From Sulfurospirillum sp. 1612 (lineage in GTDB: Bacteria > Campylobacterota > Campylobacteria > Campylobacterales > Sulfurospirillaceae), in assembly GCF_036556685.1 (NCBI RefSeq), contig NZ_CP140614.1, positions 1,550,001 to 1,614,000 on the forward strand: a DNA stretch of 64,000 nucleotides. Direction: 5' to 3'. Position numbers and translations under genes: made by a program. The notes under the pieces were generated by a model. It saw only the letters and a program-made list of their open reading frames with translations. It made no database searches and had not been told where the DNA came from. Positions 25,266 through 33,485 of this stretch are shown one piece after another. Position 1 is the first letter of the stretch; each line of letters starts with the position of its first letter.

Positions 25266-28200
25266 TTAAGATGCAACAAGTTCATTGGCAATCATCTCTG
25301 CTTGTTTGAGTACAGTTTCAGTCGCCAACATCTGCATATCGGGAGGATAGCCAAACTGTCTCAGTGTTCTTTTAACAGCTATTTTTAACTTAGCACGAAC
25401 ATTTTCTTTGATAGTCCAATCTATGGAAGCATTTGCTTTTACCTTTTGAGTTAAAACAACCGCTAATTCTCTAAGCTTATCTTGTTGCATTAACTCTTTT
25501 GCACTTTCATTATTTGCAACTGCTGTATAAAAAGCATATTCAAAATCTGTAAGCCCAAGTTTTGATGCTTCACTGTCCATATCTTTTATATCTTTTGCTA
25601 GATTCATAAGCTCATCTATCACTTCAACTGCTGTGATGATTTTATTATGATATTTTTTAATAGAGTTTTCTAACATCTCCATAAGAGATTTGCTTTGCAC
25701 TAGATTTGTTTTCATCCTCGTTTTGATCTCATCGTTAAGGAGTTTTTTAAGTACTTCAAGGGCGATGTTTTTATGCTTCATCCCTTGAACTTCCATGAGA
25801 AACTCTTCAGATAGTATAGAAATATCAGGCTTTTTGATTCCACTTGCATCAAATATATCTATAACTTGTTGGGTTACAAGTGCTTTATCTATGACTTGTC
25901 TAATGGTTGTTTCCAGCTCTTCATCAGTTTTTCCATCACCAGAACTCTCAAACTTCACAAGTCGTGCTTTTACAGCTTGAAAAAATGAAATTTCATCTTT
26001 TACATCCATAGCCTCTTCATGAGGAACTGCTATTGCAAAAGCTTGAGAAAGTGCACTCACTTCATTAATATATCTTTTCTTGCCATCTTCAAGTCCTAAG
26101 ATGTGTTCTTCCGCTTCAAGTATGAGCGCCAATTTCCCTCGAGTATCCGCTTCAAAATAATTCTCATAAGCAAATCCATGATACATAGCAGATACCACTT
26201 CGAGTTTTTCTAACATAAGAGCAACTGCTCGTTCTTGCGCAAGTGCTGGATCACCTTTTCCACCACTATCACTATAAAATGAGAGAGCTTTTTTTAAATC
26301 ACTTGCAATTCCAAGATAATCAACTACAAGTCCAGCAGGTTTATCTTTATAAACCCTATTTACCCTTGCTATGGCTTGCATAAGGTTGTGACCTTTCATA
26401 GGTTTATCTATATAAAGTGTATGTAGCGAAGGAGCATCAAATCCAGTAAGCCACATATCTCGAACGATCACAAGTTTTAACTCATCATTGATATCTTTCA
26501 TACGATTGGCCAAAGAACGTCTTTGTTGTTTACTTGTATGGTATTTGGCTAACTCTGGGCCATCATGTGAACTTGCTGTCATGATAACTTTGATAACCCC
26601 TTTGTCTAAGTCATCACTATGCCACTCTGGTCTCAATGCAATAATTTCATTGTATAACTCAACGGCAATTCTCCTACTCATAGAGACAATCATACCTTTA
26701 CCATCAAACACAACTTGACGGTTTTCAAAGTGAGCGACTATATCATTTGCCACTTCTTTAATTCTGTTTTTACTACCTATAAGTGCTTCAAGTTGAGTCC
26801 ATTTTGCTTTTGCTTTTTGGGTATCGTTTAAATCATCATTTTTTATCTCGCTATCTAACTCTTTAACAAGCTCTTTACCTTCATCACTCAGTTGTATCTT
26901 AGCAAGTCGGCTCTCATAGTAAATCTTGACTGTAGCTCCATCTTCAACCGCTTGAGAAATATCATATATATCTATATAATCACCAAATACAGCTGGAGTG
27001 TTTACATCATGACTTTCAATAGGAGTTCCTGTAAATCCAAGATAAGTAGCATTTGGTAAAGCGTCTCTTAGATATTTTGCAAAACCATAAACAATTTTTT
27101 TGCCGATGACATTTCCATCTTTATCTTTTTCATCAACTGTTTTTGGTTTAAATCCATACTGCGTACGGTGTGCTTCATCTGCTAAAACTATGATATTTCG
27201 TCTATCTGAGAGCTCATCATAGATATTTCCCTCTTCAGGCTGAAATTTTTGAATAGTGGCAAATATAACTCCACCACTTGCTACTTTTAAAAGTTTTTTG
27301 AGATGCTCTCTATCTTGTGCTTGTATAGGTTCTTGTCTCAATAAACTCTGTGAACTAGCGAAGGTGTCAAAAAGTTGATCGTCCAAATCATTTCTATCTG
27401 TGATAACTAAAATCGTAGGATTATTCAAGCTCAATACTATCTTCCCCGTATAAAACACCATAGAGAGAGATTTACCACTCCCTTGCGTATGCCAAACGAC
27501 ACCACCTTTTTTATCTCCATGCTCGCTACTTGCTTTTATAGTTCTCTCAACTGCTTTATTTACTGCATAGTACTGATGATAAGCTGCTAGTTTTTTAACT
27601 GTTTCTATAGTAGTTATACCAGTTTTGCTATCCTCTTTCGTACTTTTTTCATAAACTATAAAGTTACGGATTAAGTCTAAAAGAGTTACAGGGTTTAACA
27701 TGCCAGTTATCATAGTTTCTACTTGAGATATTAACTTTGAAGCTTCACTTTTACCATCACTACTTTTCCAGCTCATAAACCGTGACAAGCCTGCACTTAT
27801 AGTTCCTGCTTTTGCGTCTAGTCCATCACTTATGATACAAAAAGCATTGTAAGTAAATAAAGATGGAATAACGCTTTTATAAGTCTGTATCTGCTTGTAA
27901 GCACTTGCAACAGTTGCATTTTCATCTACTGGATTTTTAAGCTCTATTACAACTAAGGGTAAGCCATTTACAAAGAGGATCAGATCTGGTCGTTTGTTGA
28001 TACCATTTTCTACTATGGTAAATTGATTGGATACTACAAAATCATTACGGCTTACATCATCAAAATCTATGAGTTTAATGATTTCACCACGAGTAACGCC
28101 ATCTTTTTGCACTTCAACTTTTAGCCCTTCTGTAAGCATTTTATGAAAGAGCTCATTGTCAGTTAAAAGCTCTGTTGTTATCAGCCTTTGGCATTGTTTT

Positions 28201-28412
28201 ACAGCATATTCTATTTGCTCATTTCCTAAAGTAGGATTGATAGCAGTGAGTGAGTTTGTAAGTTTTTCTTTTAGTATCACATCTTCAAAAGATTCTCTCA
28301 TAGGAGTATCGCTATCAGGTGCAATGCTAGGAGCATAGATATATTCAAAACCCTGTTTTTCTAATAGCTCTATGGCAAAAAGTTCTATTTCATTTTCAGT
28401 TATTTTAGTCAT
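25266..28412 (-). CDS. hsdR: Type I restriction enzyme, endonuclease/translocase subunit HsdR
   Basis: 1048 aa, full length. The N-terminal nuclease region has RPDLILFVNGLPLVVIELKN (PD-...-ELK catalytic core, about 155-180). The SF2 motor follows: WHTQGSGKSLSM (Walker A), ILVITDRNDLDDQLF, ADEAHRTQYG (DEAH box), FTGTPIE (motif III) and ARVNRVYKDKP (motif VI). The long helical C-terminus binds the HsdM2S core. It cuts DNA after ATP-driven translocation when the target is unmethylated. The gene is last in the minus-strand cluster and is separated from hsdS by three other genes. No frameshift is visible, so restriction is probably active. Confidence 0.95.
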   Translation of the reverse strand: MTKITENEIELFAIELLEKQGFEYIYAPSIAPDSDTPMRESFEDVILKEKLTNSLTAINPTLGNEQIEYAVKQCQRLITTELLTDNELFHKMLTEGLKVEVQKDGVTRGEIIKLIDFDDVSRNDFVVSNQFTIVENGINKRPDLILFVNGLPLVVIELKNPVDENATVASAYKQIQTYKSVIPSLFTYNAFCIISDGLDAKAGTISAGLSRFMSWKSSDGKSEASKLISQVETMITGMLNPVTLLDLIRNFIVYEKSTKEDSKTGITTIETVKKLAAYHQYYAVNKAVERTIKASSEHGDKKGGVVWHTQGSGKSLSMVFYTGKIVLSLNNPTILVITDRNDLDDQLFDTFASSQSLLRQEPIQAQDREHLKKLLKVASGGVIFATIQKFQPEEGNIYDELSDRRNIIVLADEAHRTQYGFKPKTVDEKDKDGNVIGKKIVYGFAKYLRDALPNATYLGFTGTPIESHDVNTPAVFGDYIDIYDISQAVEDGATVKIYYESRLAKIQLSDEGKELVKELDSEIKNDDLNDTQKAKAKWTQLEALIGSKNRIKEVANDIVAHFENRQVVFDGKGMIVSMSRRIAVELYNEIIALRPEWHSDDLDKGVIKVIMTASSHDGPELAKYHTSKQQRRSLANRMKDINDELKLVIVRDMWLTGFDAPSLHTLYIDKPMKGHNLMQAIARVNRVYKDKPAGLVVDYLGIASDLKKALSFYSDSGGKGDPALAQERAVALMLEKLEVVSAMYHGFAYENYFEADTRGKLALILEAEEHILGLEDGKKRYINEVSALSQAFAIAVPHEEAMDVKDEISFFQAVKARLVKFESSGDGKTDEELETTIRQVIDKALVTQQVIDIFDASGIKKPDISILSEEFLMEVQGMKHKNIALEVLKKLLNDEIKTRMKTNLVQSKSLMEMLENSIKKYHNKIITAVEVIDELMNLAKDIKDMDSEASKLGLTDFEYAFYTAVANNESAKELMQQDKLRELAVVLTQKVKANASIDWTIKENVRAKLKIAVKRTLRQFGYPPDMQMLATETVLKQAEMIANELVAS

Positions 28413-28436: not shown

Positions 28437-29336
28437 TTATATTTTTTTATTAGCGTTTGCCATAAATGAGTCACCAGTAAAATCCCCTTGATATACTTGC
28501 TCACTACAAGCTTTCATGAAGATTTTCATATTGTTATCAGATTGAATAGAAATTTTTTCATCACTTACAAGTTCTTTTAAAACATCAAATTTATTCATAT
28601 ATATTAAAAATTCATTTGGATTATTTTTTATTTTTTCAAAAGTACCATTCGTTTTATAAAAAGAAATTTTCTTTAAATTTATTGAACTTATCTTATTGCT
28701 ATTTATTAAATCACTATTAATATCTACTAAATTCACAAGTTCCGTATTGAATATATTATTAACATCACTTTTAGACGCTTCTTTATATAAATGTTTAAAA
28801 TCCCCATGTATATTGTTTAAATGTGATAACTGCTTAAAATAAATTCTCCCAGTATCTTCACATAAAATAAAATCTACTTTATCCTCAAATTGTAAAAGGT
28901 TATTATTCTCTAAAAGTTTTGTCCCATTATCAAAAAATAAGAACTTTTTATCTTCAGCTATATATTTTTTACTTGTAATGACTTGGAAGTTGATTTTTAA
29001 TTTACTATCTACTTCTTCTCCATACATAACAAGCTTAATATCATTTAATGTTAAACTATCAATATTTGACAAATCAGTACTTGACCTAAAGTGCTCATAA
29101 ATCTTATCAATATGCCTCTTTACATTATTTTCCAAATCATCAGTTTCTAAATAAAACCATTCGTCATAAGCAGGAATATAATCAGGAGAGACTTTAAAAT
29201 TAGTGAGATTATTATCTTCAATAGTTATAAAACTAGAAAAGTTTGGTACATTCTCTGCAAACTTATCAAATTCATCACTAGAATCAAAAAGATTATTAAA
29301 CTTATTTTTTTTCAATTTACATATACATTCAGCCAT
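28437..29336 (-). CDS. kwaB: KwaB-like (DUF4868) anti-phage protein
   Basis: 299 aa soluble protein, predicted cytoplasmic. The layout fits the DUF4868/KwaB family: an N-terminal strand region (PNFSSFITIEDN), YDEWFYLETDDLENNVKRHI, then a beta-rich core with KLKINFQVITSKKYI, KKFLFFDNGTKLL, FEDKVDFILCEDTG and RIYFKQLSHLNNIHGDF (about 112-180). In Kiwa defence KwaB partners the membrane protein KwaA and acts on phage DNA. It overlaps the preceding four-helix gene by 8 nt, as expected for a coupled kwaA-kwaB pair, and ends 24 nt before hsdR. Strongly AT-rich. The family is recognised from pattern and pairing, not from a search. Confidence 0.62.
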   Translation of the reverse strand: MAECICKLKKNKFNNLFDSSDEFDKFAENVPNFSSFITIEDNNLTNFKVSPDYIPAYDEWFYLETDDLENNVKRHIDKIYEHFRSSTDLSNIDSLTLNDIKLVMYGEEVDSKLKINFQVITSKKYIAEDKKFLFFDNGTKLLENNNLLQFEDKVDFILCEDTGRIYFKQLSHLNNIHGDFKHLYKEASKSDVNNIFNTELVNLVDINSDLINSNKISSINLKKISFYKTNGTFEKIKNNPNEFLIYMNKFDVLKELVSDEKISIQSDNNMKIFMKACSEQVYQGDFTGDSFMANANKKI

Positions 29337-29925
29337 TTGTATCCTTTGTATGAATTAGTAACTCTTCATCAATTTTTTTTAACTTATTTTGTTGAGATAA
29401 AAACTTATAGTCTTTTTCATTTGAGATTAAAATATATTCTGATTTATCTGTTTCTATTTTATATATTCTAATTCCTAAAATGTAGTAAAATGGATTTAAA
29501 AAACCTATTTTTGTCATATAAAAAAGTACAAATAAAAAAACAAATATTGAGTTAAAGAATACAATATTATATTCTTGTATATTTTTGAGTGATAAAGCTA
29601 TGATAATAATTGATAAAAAGACAGGTAAATATTCTCTATATATTGGATTGATTTTTTTTATTGTAATTGTTAGTTCTTTAGATACTTTTGCAATATCTTT
29701 TAATAAATAGACACTTATTAAACTCATTATAAAAATAATTAATAAATATAATACAATATTCATCAACTCATTATATTGTGTAAAATCAAAAATATATTCT
29801 TTATATTCAAAGATATAATCAATATTAACTAGAAATATTTTATTGTTTAGTATGTATAAAAATATTATCCATAAAAAAGAATTGATATGAATAAAAAGCT
29901 TTAAAAATAAACTTTTTAACTTCAT
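29329..29925 (-). CDS. kwaA: KwaA-like four-helix membrane protein of a Kiwa-type system
   Basis: 198 aa. Four hydrophobic segments lie at about 8-27, 55-76, 100-114 and 121-140, followed by GFLNPFYYILGIRIYKIETD (141-160) and a cytoplasmic tail with EYILISNEKDY. The length, four helices, the N-P-x-x-Y-x-L-G block and the tail resemble KwaA, the membrane sensor of Kiwa, which responds to phage attachment or injection and signals to KwaB. ATG with AAGGTAAAG upstream. Base composition is extremely AT-rich compared with flanking genes, a sign of transfer. An unrelated small membrane protein remains possible. Confidence 0.6.
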   Translation of the reverse strand: MKLKSLFLKLFIHINSFLWIIFLYILNNKIFLVNIDYIFEYKEYIFDFTQYNELMNIVLYLLIIFIMSLISVYLLKDIAKVSKELTITIKKINPIYREYLPVFLSIIIIALSLKNIQEYNIVFFNSIFVFLFVLFYMTKIGFLNPFYYILGIRIYKIETDKSEYILISNEKDYKFLSQQNKLKKIDEELLIHTKDTNG

Positions 29926-29955: not shown

Positions 29956-30612
29956 TTATTCATCTTCAATATCTCTTTCGCTAGTCATAAAGTTAGTATG
30001 CTCAGTTTTATATGCTGAATAGTCAATGTTATATAAAACCTCACTTGCAGGATAAGTATAATCCTCAGTCATAGAAAAATCACCATACATTTCATCCCAA
30101 AACTCATTAAACTCTTCTTCTTGTTCATAATGGATTTTTTCTATATTTTGCTTGACTCTAGGATTTTCATTTTCAAAACTTTTAATTAAAAAACTAGCTG
30201 TAAGTATTGTTGTATTGATTAAAAATTCTTTTGTTAATTCATCTATGCCATCATTTCTAATTTGAAGTTCTTGCATAGTTCTGCCATGAGATGTAGCACC
30301 TATTTCATTTCTTAAATTACCCATCTGTTGACCAATATTTGCAATGGAAGTTGACAATTGTACTTCTAAGTCTCCTCCCTTAAAACCTATAGCCTTATAG
30401 GCTTGTTTTAATGAACCACCAATACTCTCTGTGGAATTTAACTCTATACCTTTTTCACTACAAATTTCTTTAGATATGGACTCTAAGAGAGATTTTGCAT
30501 TCTCTAAAGCTGAGCCAAAATCACTATCTACAAAAGTTTCAATTCGTAATAAGTATTCTTCTAGTGGTTTCCACCTACCATATTGTTCGATTAAAACTTT
30601 TAACTTTTCCAT
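29956..30612 (-). CDS. Abortive-infection C-terminal (Abi_C) domain protein
   Basis: 218 aa, soluble. The middle follows the Abi_C helical pattern: ALENAKSLLESISKEICSEK (35-54), SLKQAYKAIGF (67-77) and the diagnostic block NLRNEIGATSHGR (99-111), an RN-x-HG arrangement like that of Abi_C/HEPN-type proteins. The C-terminal 60 residues are acidic. Proteins of this kind are common passengers in type I restriction loci and are presumed anti-phage effectors. It lies two bases after hsdS, so it is cotranscribed with it. The N-terminal effector domain seen in longer Abi proteins is absent. Function remains inferred. Confidence 0.65.
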   Translation of the reverse strand: MEKLKVLIEQYGRWKPLEEYLLRIETFVDSDFGSALENAKSLLESISKEICSEKGIELNSTESIGGSLKQAYKAIGFKGGDLEVQLSTSIANIGQQMGNLRNEIGATSHGRTMQELQIRNDGIDELTKEFLINTTILTASFLIKSFENENPRVKQNIEKIHYEQEEEFNEFWDEMYGDFSMTEDYTYPASEVLYNIDYSAYKTEHTNFMTSERDIEDE

Positions 30613-30614
30613 AC

Positions 30615-31727
30615 TTAATAATTAACCTTAACTTCACCACTCATAAGCTTAGGCAAAAGTGTATCTCTCATATTTTCAAGAGTTTTGATTTGGCCCAAAC
30701 TAAAAATGATTTTTTCAAACATAGGAGATATTATTTTTGAATACTTTTCTATTTCATCTTTATCTAATTCTGCAAAAGGACAATTCTCTATATCCGTTGC
30801 ACTAATATTTGGTTGAGCACTTCCTGAAGCTGTATTTATAATATAGTCATAACCAAATTCTGATGTTAAGTGCAAATAGGCAAGAAAGCACGCACCATTA
30901 AATTTCTCCCGTAACATACCAACTCGTTGATTTAGCCATAAATTTTTATCAGTATTTGGGACTATTCCCATTTTCCCAATTTCAGCACCAGTCATAGCAA
31001 AAAGAATATCACCACTATTTATTTTAAATTTCTCATCAGTTCTTATTGCAACATTGTCATCTATAAAATCACTTTCAGATATATTAACTATTGAATTTGA
31101 AATATTTTTTATTTTTATTACTAAATTATTTCCAAAATCTTGAAAATCTTTACTTTTAAAAGCGTAACCACTTTGAAGATTAACAATATTACCAATAGTT
31201 GAGTTAAAATCAGACTCTTTAAACCATTGTCTAAAAAGTGTTTGTGCTAGCTCTTCAAGGGTTTTGTTTTGGCGGTGGAGAAGGTCGATTTTATCATCAA
31301 GAGAGCTTAAAACTTCTGCTATTGCTTTTTGTTCTTCTAATGGTGGAAGTGTAATAAAAGCGTCACTTAAATCATTAATTGTAATTTGAGATTGTGCAGA
31401 CCCACTATCTAAGTATCTTAAAGTTTCAATAGCATAGTAATAATAAATAAATTTATTATCAACAATATTTTTGTCAAAATCCATTTTAAGCGATAGATTA
31501 GTAAGAAAGCAATCTTCTTTAATAACTTTCACATCACCTGTTCCACCAACACCCCTTGCAACTACAATTAAATCACCTTTATTACAATTAAATTCAGGAT
31601 AAGTGTATTGATATTTATATCCCGAAAATGTTGGATAATTCCCCGAATTTAATTTATCTTTTTTGGGCATTTTCCCATATGAAAAGTTACCAATATCGCC
31701 TATTCTATATTGTATCCACTCACCCAT
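30615..31727 (-). CDS. hsdS: Type I restriction-modification specificity subunit HsdS
   Basis: 370 aa with two target recognition domains separated by conserved helical spacers. TRD1 is about 1-125; the central repeat is LPPLEEQKAIAEVLSSLDDK with NKTLEELAQTLFRQWF (about 128-175). TRD2 (about 180-325) is closed by the distal repeat YSKIISPMFEKI and TLLPKLMSGEV. The ATG at 31727 overlaps the stop of the small gene before it (TGATG). It determines the bipartite DNA target of both methylation and cleavage. The sequence motif recognised cannot be predicted. No second hsdS or inverted repeats for shuffling were seen. Confidence 0.93.
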   Translation of the reverse strand: MGEWIQYRIGDIGNFSYGKMPKKDKLNSGNYPTFSGYKYQYTYPEFNCNKGDLIVVARGVGGTGDVKVIKEDCFLTNLSLKMDFDKNIVDNKFIYYYYAIETLRYLDSGSAQSQITINDLSDAFITLPPLEEQKAIAEVLSSLDDKIDLLHRQNKTLEELAQTLFRQWFKESDFNSTIGNIVNLQSGYAFKSKDFQDFGNNLVIKIKNISNSIVNISESDFIDDNVAIRTDEKFKINSGDILFAMTGAEIGKMGIVPNTDKNLWLNQRVGMLREKFNGACFLAYLHLTSEFGYDYIINTASGSAQPNISATDIENCPFAELDKDEIEKYSKIISPMFEKIIFSLGQIKTLENMRDTLLPKLMSGEVKVNY

Positions 31728-31930
31728 CAAACATCCCCCTCATAAAGCATATTTATAACAAGTTTGATGATTATCTCTTTTTGATCTGGGTGTGACTGTG
31801 CTACGAGCAGAGCTATAGAAGCTAAGGCATTGTCATTGATTTTAGTTTGTTTTTTGCCCTCTAAAGCCCTATGCTTAGTGGTGTGTTCCAAAATGGAACA
31901 AGTTGATTTTTTATCTAATTCTTCACTCAT
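31727..31930 (-). CDS. Small 67-aa protein overlapping hsdM and hsdS
   Basis: [20 protein letters not shown] to the C-terminus, a charged, probably helical soluble protein with no recognised domain. Its ATG lies inside the end of hsdM (8-nt overlap) and its stop overlaps the hsdS start (TGATG), so all three are translationally coupled. Coupled placement and a proper start and stop argue that it is a real gene. It might tune HsdS level or complex assembly, but that is only suggested by position. Confidence 0.65.
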
Positions 31931-33485
31931 CAATAACAACCTTTGCCAAGTTATCATTTATCCTTTGATTTAGTATTTGTTCCTCTTTTATCTGCTCTTT
32001 AAGCTCAGCTTGCAAGCTAGTAAATCTCTCTTTAAAATCAAATTCATCATCTACCTCTTCAAGTCCTACATATCGCCCAGGGGTTAGTACATAGTTTAGC
32101 TCTTTTACTTCATCTAATGAAGCTGATTTACAAAAACCTTTTATATCTTCATACTCACTATTTCCACTCTTCCAATCATGATAAACCTTAGCTATGTGGT
32201 TTGTATCTTCATGACTTAACTCTTTTGTTCGTCTGTTGATAAGATGCCCCATATTTCGAGCGTCTATAAAAAGAATGTCTTTAGTAGTTTTTCCTCTTTT
32301 CATAAACCAAATGCTCGCTGGAATTTGAGTATTTAAAAAGAGTTTTGCAGGGAGGTTTACTATTGCATCAACTAAATTAGCTTCTATAAGAGCTTTTCTA
32401 ATCTCTCCCTCATTTGATGTGTTAGAAGTGAGGCTCCCTTTTGCTAGTACAAATCCTGCTGTTCCAGTTGGGCTCAAGTGATAGAGGAAGTGTTGTATCC
32501 AAGCGTAGTTTGCATTTCCCTCTGGTGGAGTTCCATATTTCCATCTTCCATCATTTCGCAGGAGATCACCACTCCAATCACTTACATTAAAAGGTGGATT
32601 TGCGATGATAAAATCAGCTTTTAAATCTTTGTGGGCATCGTTTAAAAATGAGCCTTCATTGTTCCATTTTACTTGAGAGCTGTCTATTCCACGAATGGCA
32701 AGATTCATCTTTGCTAGACGCCATGTGGTTTGGTTTGACTCTTGACCATAGATAGATATATCGTTTATCTTGCCTTGGTGTTCTTTTACAAACTTTTCAG
32801 ATTGTACAAACATACCACCACTACCACAACAAGGATCAAACACTCTACCTTTGCAGGGCTCTAACATTTTTACAAGAAGTTCAACGACACTTTTTGGCGT
32901 ATAAAACTGTCCCCCTTGTTTGCCCTCAGCTAGTGCAAACTCACCTAAAAAGTATTCAAATACATGACCAAGTACATCAGCACTTCTTGCTTTGGCATCA
33001 CCAAGGGCAATGTTTCCTATAAGGTCGATAAGCCCGCCCAGTGCTTTACTATCTAAGTTGTCTCTTGCATAGACTTTTGGCAGTACCCCTTTTAGTGATG
33101 GATTGTCTTTTTCTACAACATCCATAGCTTCATCGACAATTTTCCCGATATTTGGAAGTTTTGCATTTGAAAGTAAGTAGTTCCATCTAGCAGCAGGAGG
33201 GACGAAAAATACATTTTCCGCTTTATATTCATCTTTGTCTTCGGGGTCTGCTCCAACATACTCACCTTCACCAGATTTTAGTTTATTGTGAAGCTCTTCA
33301 AAACTATCAGAAATATACTTTAAAAACACAAGTCCCAATACGACATGTTTGTACTCCGCCGCATCGATGTTTTTTCGTAGCTTATCAGCTGCTTTCCATA
33401 ATTGTTTCTCTAGTGATTCTTCTTGCTTCTCTTTTTGGGACAACTTTTCAACTTTTTTCAAATCATTATGCGCTAGTTTTGCCAT
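31923..33485 (-). CDS. hsdM: Type I DNA adenine methyltransferase subunit HsdM
   Basis: 520 aa. An N-terminal helical domain ([20 protein letters not shown]) is followed by the gamma-class N6-adenine methylase fold: SAM-binding [14 protein letters not shown] (motif I), catalytic [12 protein letters not shown] (motif IV, NPPF) and [26 protein letters not shown] is another hallmark. First gene of the cluster, with its own ATG and 170 nt of AT-rich upstream DNA next to tRNA-Met. It methylates the HsdS-defined target and protects host DNA. Confidence 0.95.

Follow-up and report, generated by a model that had tools for sequence, protein, structure and literature searches.

A strongly diverged candidate Kiwa pair inside a type I restriction operon of Sulfurospirillum sp. 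1612, and the recurrence of such nesting in Campylobacterota

In the Kiwa defence system as reviewed, KwaA forms membrane tetramers with KwaB dimers bound to them, KwaA being the sensor of infection at the membrane and KwaB a protein that attaches to injected DNA but leaves it uncut (PMC12904381). Defence genes embedded in hsd operons, in the hsdS–hsdR interval or at other positions, have already been described for DarTG2, TgvAB and PrrC, and PMC12255303 cites a survey of embedded defence genes. For Kiwa inside restriction operons we found no description in the open-access journal papers searched.

Three of the described arrangements bear comparison with the locus presented here. TgvAB, in the VPI-2 type I operon of V. 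cholerae, is likewise a two-gene defence inside an hsd operon, but unlike Kiwa it is a modification-dependent restriction system rather than a membrane system, and it protects without the HsdR restriction activity of its host operon (PMC11411939). A known toxin-antitoxin cargo occupies the identical hsdS–hsdR slot, which its authors regard as a potential recombination hotspot; it stands under the repressor RptR, whereas no such repressor was identified at our locus. PrrC, embedded in the type IC operon of EcoprrI (PMC3874165, PMC12707154), is an anticodon nuclease that the restriction complex keeps silent, and the pair described below is likened to it by embedding alone.

The window (the whole stretch of 64,000 nucleotides that was analysed) contains a run of genes on one strand, which in order of reading are as follows.

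31923–33485, minus strand: hsdM, type I methyltransferase, 520 aa (Pfam N6_Mtase 3.3e-111, HsdM_N 1.1e-26)
31727–31957, minus strand: 76-aa ORF between hsdM and hsdS, overlapping both; probable 3' remnant of rhuM
30615–31730, minus strand: hsdS, type I specificity subunit, 371 aa (Pfam Methylase_S 1e-35)
29956–30612, minus strand: Abi_C-domain gene, 218 aa (Pfam Abi_C 26.3 bits, cut-off 24)
29329–29925, minus strand: kwaA, start ATG, 198-aa four-helix membrane protein of the KwaA family
28437–29336, minus strand: kwaB, start ATG, 299 aa, assigned as a diverged member of the KwaB/DUF4868 family
25266–28412, minus strand: hsdR, type I restriction subunit, 1048 aa (PADLOC REase_I E=0, TIGR00348 1.4e-184)

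By Pfam, PADLOC and NCBIfam the three hsd genes are unambiguous and apparently intact, and the two Methylase_S stretches of hsdS are the only ones in this genome. An earlier note, made from the bare sequence, had placed two overlapping ORFs of 198 and 299 aa between hsdS and hsdR; both are confirmed there on the minus strand, full length and with intact frames that share 8 bp, and to this picture we add the 218-aa Abi_C gene, unmentioned earlier, which lies between hsdS and the pair. Spacing is tight throughout (hsdS to Abi_C gene 2 bp, kwaB to hsdR 24 bp), the 30 bp between the Abi_C gene and kwaA being the longest gap of the run. The strong AT-richness noted earlier is likewise evident, with G+C contents of 17.8% for kwaA and 23.9% for kwaB against 37.6% for the whole window; the neighbours range from hsdM (37.6%) and hsdR (35.2%) to the Abi_C gene (30.4%) and hsdS (29.6%), and this dip between hsdM and hsdR fits inserted cargo. 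A promoter and terminator scan of the locus returned 51 sites against 44 in shuffled sequence (sd 6.8), about equal, and is thus uninformative on the transcript.

The 198-aa protein matches eight PADLOC KwaA models (best 1.1e-7) and the NCBIfam KwaA model NF041622 (2.8e-7, 30.5 bits, under the curated cut-off of 100). As a single query against six KwaA proteins of other loci it scored 99.1% (hhalign, E=1.6e-18), and with a KwaA profile made from nine members of the family the solved structures 9o0i/9mrg of KwaA are reached at 1.3e-5. Hydropathy and the AlphaFold model (mean pLDDT 64.6) both show the four long hydrophobic helices of the earlier description, placed in the model at residues 2–28, 46–79, 95–115 and 120–138. 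The best fold match of this model is chain A of 9mrx, a KwaA–KwaB complex (probability 0.99, though with E=0.009 and TM 0.45).

Its partner is harder to place. Alone, the 299-aa protein went unmatched in searches of Pfam, PADLOC, NCBIfam and the PDB. Its AlphaFold model, at pLDDT 46.6, is too poor to use and has no fold match, and a KwaB-family profile run against the PDB did not reach any solved KwaB chain at the sequence level. Eight relatives were nevertheless found among 399 genomes of the order, and in all eight a KwaA-like membrane protein directly precedes kwaB; since homologues form an adjacent pair in other genomes, kwaA and kwaB are real genes rather than chance ORFs. The closest relative, L002 (E=1.9e-12), matches PADLOC KwaB at 6.4e-21, and KwaB models are matched by five of the nine family members. 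Against an independent alignment (A4) of seven KwaBs, four from plasmids of other phyla and three from Campylobacterota, that excludes the window protein, the single sequence scored 97.4% (hhalign, E=1.3e-11), the match covering residues 49–295. Conserved motifs run through the family, among them the YF strand and the C-terminal segment. With four close KwaBs as query, only three loci were recovered, and no end branch of the KwaB tree is longer than that of the window protein (1.85). Judged by sequence, the 299-aa protein is in our view a true but fast-diverging KwaB.

The pair thus resembles the solved Kiwa systems (9mrx, 9mrr, 9mrg, 9o0i) in having two adjacent genes with the membrane protein first, kwaA and then kwaB on one strand, in the four-helix KwaA, and in the homology of both proteins by profile. 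It differs in that its KwaA is only about 18% identical to solved KwaA where the folds are matched, KwaB falls below all curated models, the genes lie in a restriction operon, and the host has AddAB-like proteins and lacks RecC. The earlier note had called the pair a diverged Kiwa and proposed an HMM search of both proteins: the KwaA models were matched and the KwaB models were not matched directly, so that the proposal is borne out by direct matches on one side and, on the other, by the independent alignment and through L002. It would have given up Kiwa for want of a match to either model combined with an unrelated fold; KwaA models were matched, and the KwaA fold is nearest to 9mrx. On these comparisons of sequence and profile, the window pair is a real, strongly diverged Kiwa.

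How often Kiwa lies within restriction operons was surveyed across Campylobacterota, where a family profile search found KwaB in 30 of 397 genomes. The census comprised 32 Kiwa loci including the window (the family-profile loci and two more from the first relative search); Hsd, Mod, Res, RhuM and Kwa genes were marked by profiles grown from the surveyed loci, and a locus was counted as nested if it had a restriction-modification gene on each side in one same-strand run with gaps of less than 300 bp. By this rule 15 of the 32 loci are nested, ten in type I operons (the window, L039, L041, L050, L052, L054, L055, L056, L057 and L060) and five in type III operons (L063, L064, L065, L066 and L069), the latter in the order mod, kwaA, kwaB, rhuM, res, with the Mod, RhuM and Res calls in members of this group confirmed by Pfam. 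Four changes of the type I label are required on the KwaB tree, at least three of them forced by well-supported branches, so that type I nesting has been gained or lost repeatedly; the type III label requires two, and the nested type III loci appear to represent essentially a single clade. The order mod-kwaA-kwaB-rhuM-res in type III operons forms a recurrent unit, found mostly in one KwaB clade and also in L040.

Nesting by the same rule was found for HamA (Hachiman) in 10 of 19 loci and for AbiEii in 0 of 20. With control loci drawn mostly from top-scoring matches in two control families of one phylum, Kiwa differs from AbiEii (Fisher p=1.4e-4) and not from HamA (p=0.78), both p values ignoring relatedness. 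We therefore reject the idea that nesting is special to Kiwa, given that Hachiman is nested equally: the slot houses several kinds of defence system. In two Sulfurimonas genomes (L055, L057), HamA and a helicase sit beside Kiwa in a single type I operon. The state of kwaB also differs with position: none of the 15 nested copies is broken, against eight of the 17 others (Fisher p=0.003), but the broken loci cluster in a few genera, so that relatedness confounds the contrast and we give it little weight. Split or truncated KwaB occurs in the non-nested loci L042, L043, L044, L047, L048, L049, L058 and L061.

Outside Campylobacterota, plasmid Kiwa pairs of Sphingobium, Roseivivax, Apilactobacillus, Latilactobacillus and Persicobacter are not nested. 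In Neisseria gonorrhoeae, hsdR, a rhuM fragment, hsdS, kwaA, kwaB and hsdM form one run (L157:2877-10508), and nesting is thus not confined to Campylobacterota. The Neisseria record is filed as a plasmid, yet is chromosome-sized. From a KwaB-like gene of a Shigella plasmid, the search led to one E. coli plasmid only.

The contents of the slot between hsdS and hsdR are exchanged. In a genome of the same genus (G289) whose HsdR is 85% identical to that of the window, the roughly 105 bp upstream of hsdR, up to the contig end, have no match to kwaB and encode instead a protein tail that, over 29 residues, shares 66% identity with the RhuM end; a rhuM tail where the window has kwaB marks the slot as swappable cargo space. 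In two genomes of the family whose HsdR is more distant, the place before hsdR is taken by an AAA_13 protein (L112:9211-11319) and by a HerA-type protein (L111:9216-11204); taken together, cargo other than Kiwa in or near the slot includes HamA with a helicase, HerA, AAA_13, Abi_C, Abi_2 and Fic. The 76-aa ORF matches residues 282–323 of a RhuM-marked protein in L060 (E=1.7e-11), which there sits between hsdM and hsdS; the ORF thus probably remains from cargo that once occupied a second slot, hsdM–hsdS. That it encodes a separate small regulator was considered and rejected in favour of this match to the RhuM C-terminus.

In our judgement the window pair is likely a genuine, strongly diverged Kiwa, carried as interchangeable cargo of the hsdS–hsdR slot and working in parallel to restriction. 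By analogy with described Kiwa, KwaA in the inner membrane would respond to phage attachment or injection and hold KwaB there, and KwaB would bind incoming DNA and block its replication and late transcription. The tight gene spacing implies that hsdMS, kwaAB and hsdR may be read as one transcript, and the shared promoter that the earlier note thought possible would agree with it. The joint action with restriction that the note also suggested is to be read as a hypothesis, nesting being, by the Hachiman control, a general property of the slot. Two complementary layers would result, one independent of methylation at the membrane and the other cutting unmethylated DNA in the cytoplasm, which presumably act in parallel and not through contact. 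The recurrence of nesting in related bacteria suggests that the restriction and Kiwa defences are inherited and switched on together. Because this genome lacks RecC and has an AddAB-like pair, the link to RecBCD reported for E. coli Kiwa could not apply unchanged; any RecBCD-linked step would here either be missing or depend on AddAB.

Three other readings have to be weighed against that of a genuine Kiwa acting in parallel to restriction. The genes could form a distinct two-gene membrane/DUF4868-like system that resembles Kiwa and differs in its working, as might be argued from the lack of a direct KwaB model match for the 299-aa protein, identities of 14–26% to all other members, the long branch (1.85) on the KwaB tree and the unreliable fold model of KwaB; yet both partners have significant profile matches, the gene order is identical, the YF strand and C-terminal segment are conserved, and intermediates match KwaB models, so that we hold this to be very unlikely. 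Lower still we would place the idea of a decaying, non-functional passenger that is being lost. The extreme AT content of the pair would suit it, cargo does decay in this operon, as the adjoining 76-aa rhuM remnant attests, and broken Kiwa loci are many in Campylobacterota, but kwaA and kwaB are full length with intact overlapping frames, and the flanking hsd genes are intact.

The remaining reading concerns working rather than identity, and holds that Kiwa guards the restriction system, being silenced by HsdRMS or switched on by phage inhibition of that complex, in the way that PrrC is tied to EcoprrI. Kiwa is embedded in a type I operon just as prrC is (PMC3874165, PMC12707154), nesting recurs across unrelated KwaB lineages in both type I and type III operons, and kwaB is intact wherever it is nested, with the broken copies confined to the other loci and clustered in a few genera as described above. 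Against this, Kiwa functions elsewhere without a restriction operon, the S. thermophilus system protecting when cloned alone on a plasmid (PMC11514479), and plasmid-borne pairs stand alone; Hachiman occupies the slot at an equal rate, which argues for a general cargo site; the known triggers of Kiwa are at the membrane; and type I and type III partners have no obvious common docking surface. We consider such guarding unlikely, and slightly more doubtful the specific form in which the disabling of type I or III restriction by a phage would set free or trigger membrane-bound KwaA–KwaB. Were guarding true, it would explain why unrelated Kiwa lineages come to lie repeatedly between the modification and restriction genes of two restriction types.

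As a genuine Kiwa, the window pair would carry the system into sequence territory where the KwaB partner escapes present detection models. Roughly half of the Kiwa and Hachiman loci sampled in Campylobacterota do not stand alone but form part of a restriction operon, and such embedded loci allow a direct test of co-expressed cargo against wiring to the state of the restriction enzyme. They also offer a rule for searches, namely to inspect hsdS–hsdR and mod–res intervals for unrecognised systems, for which the Abi_C gene of the window is an example. This gene is a second cargo of the slot and possibly a further, unrecognised defence gene. It has no relative in 249 genomes of the order apart from its own, and the only one found, at 31% identity, lies on a Picosynechococcus plasmid, exactly between hsdS and hsdR of a type I operon.
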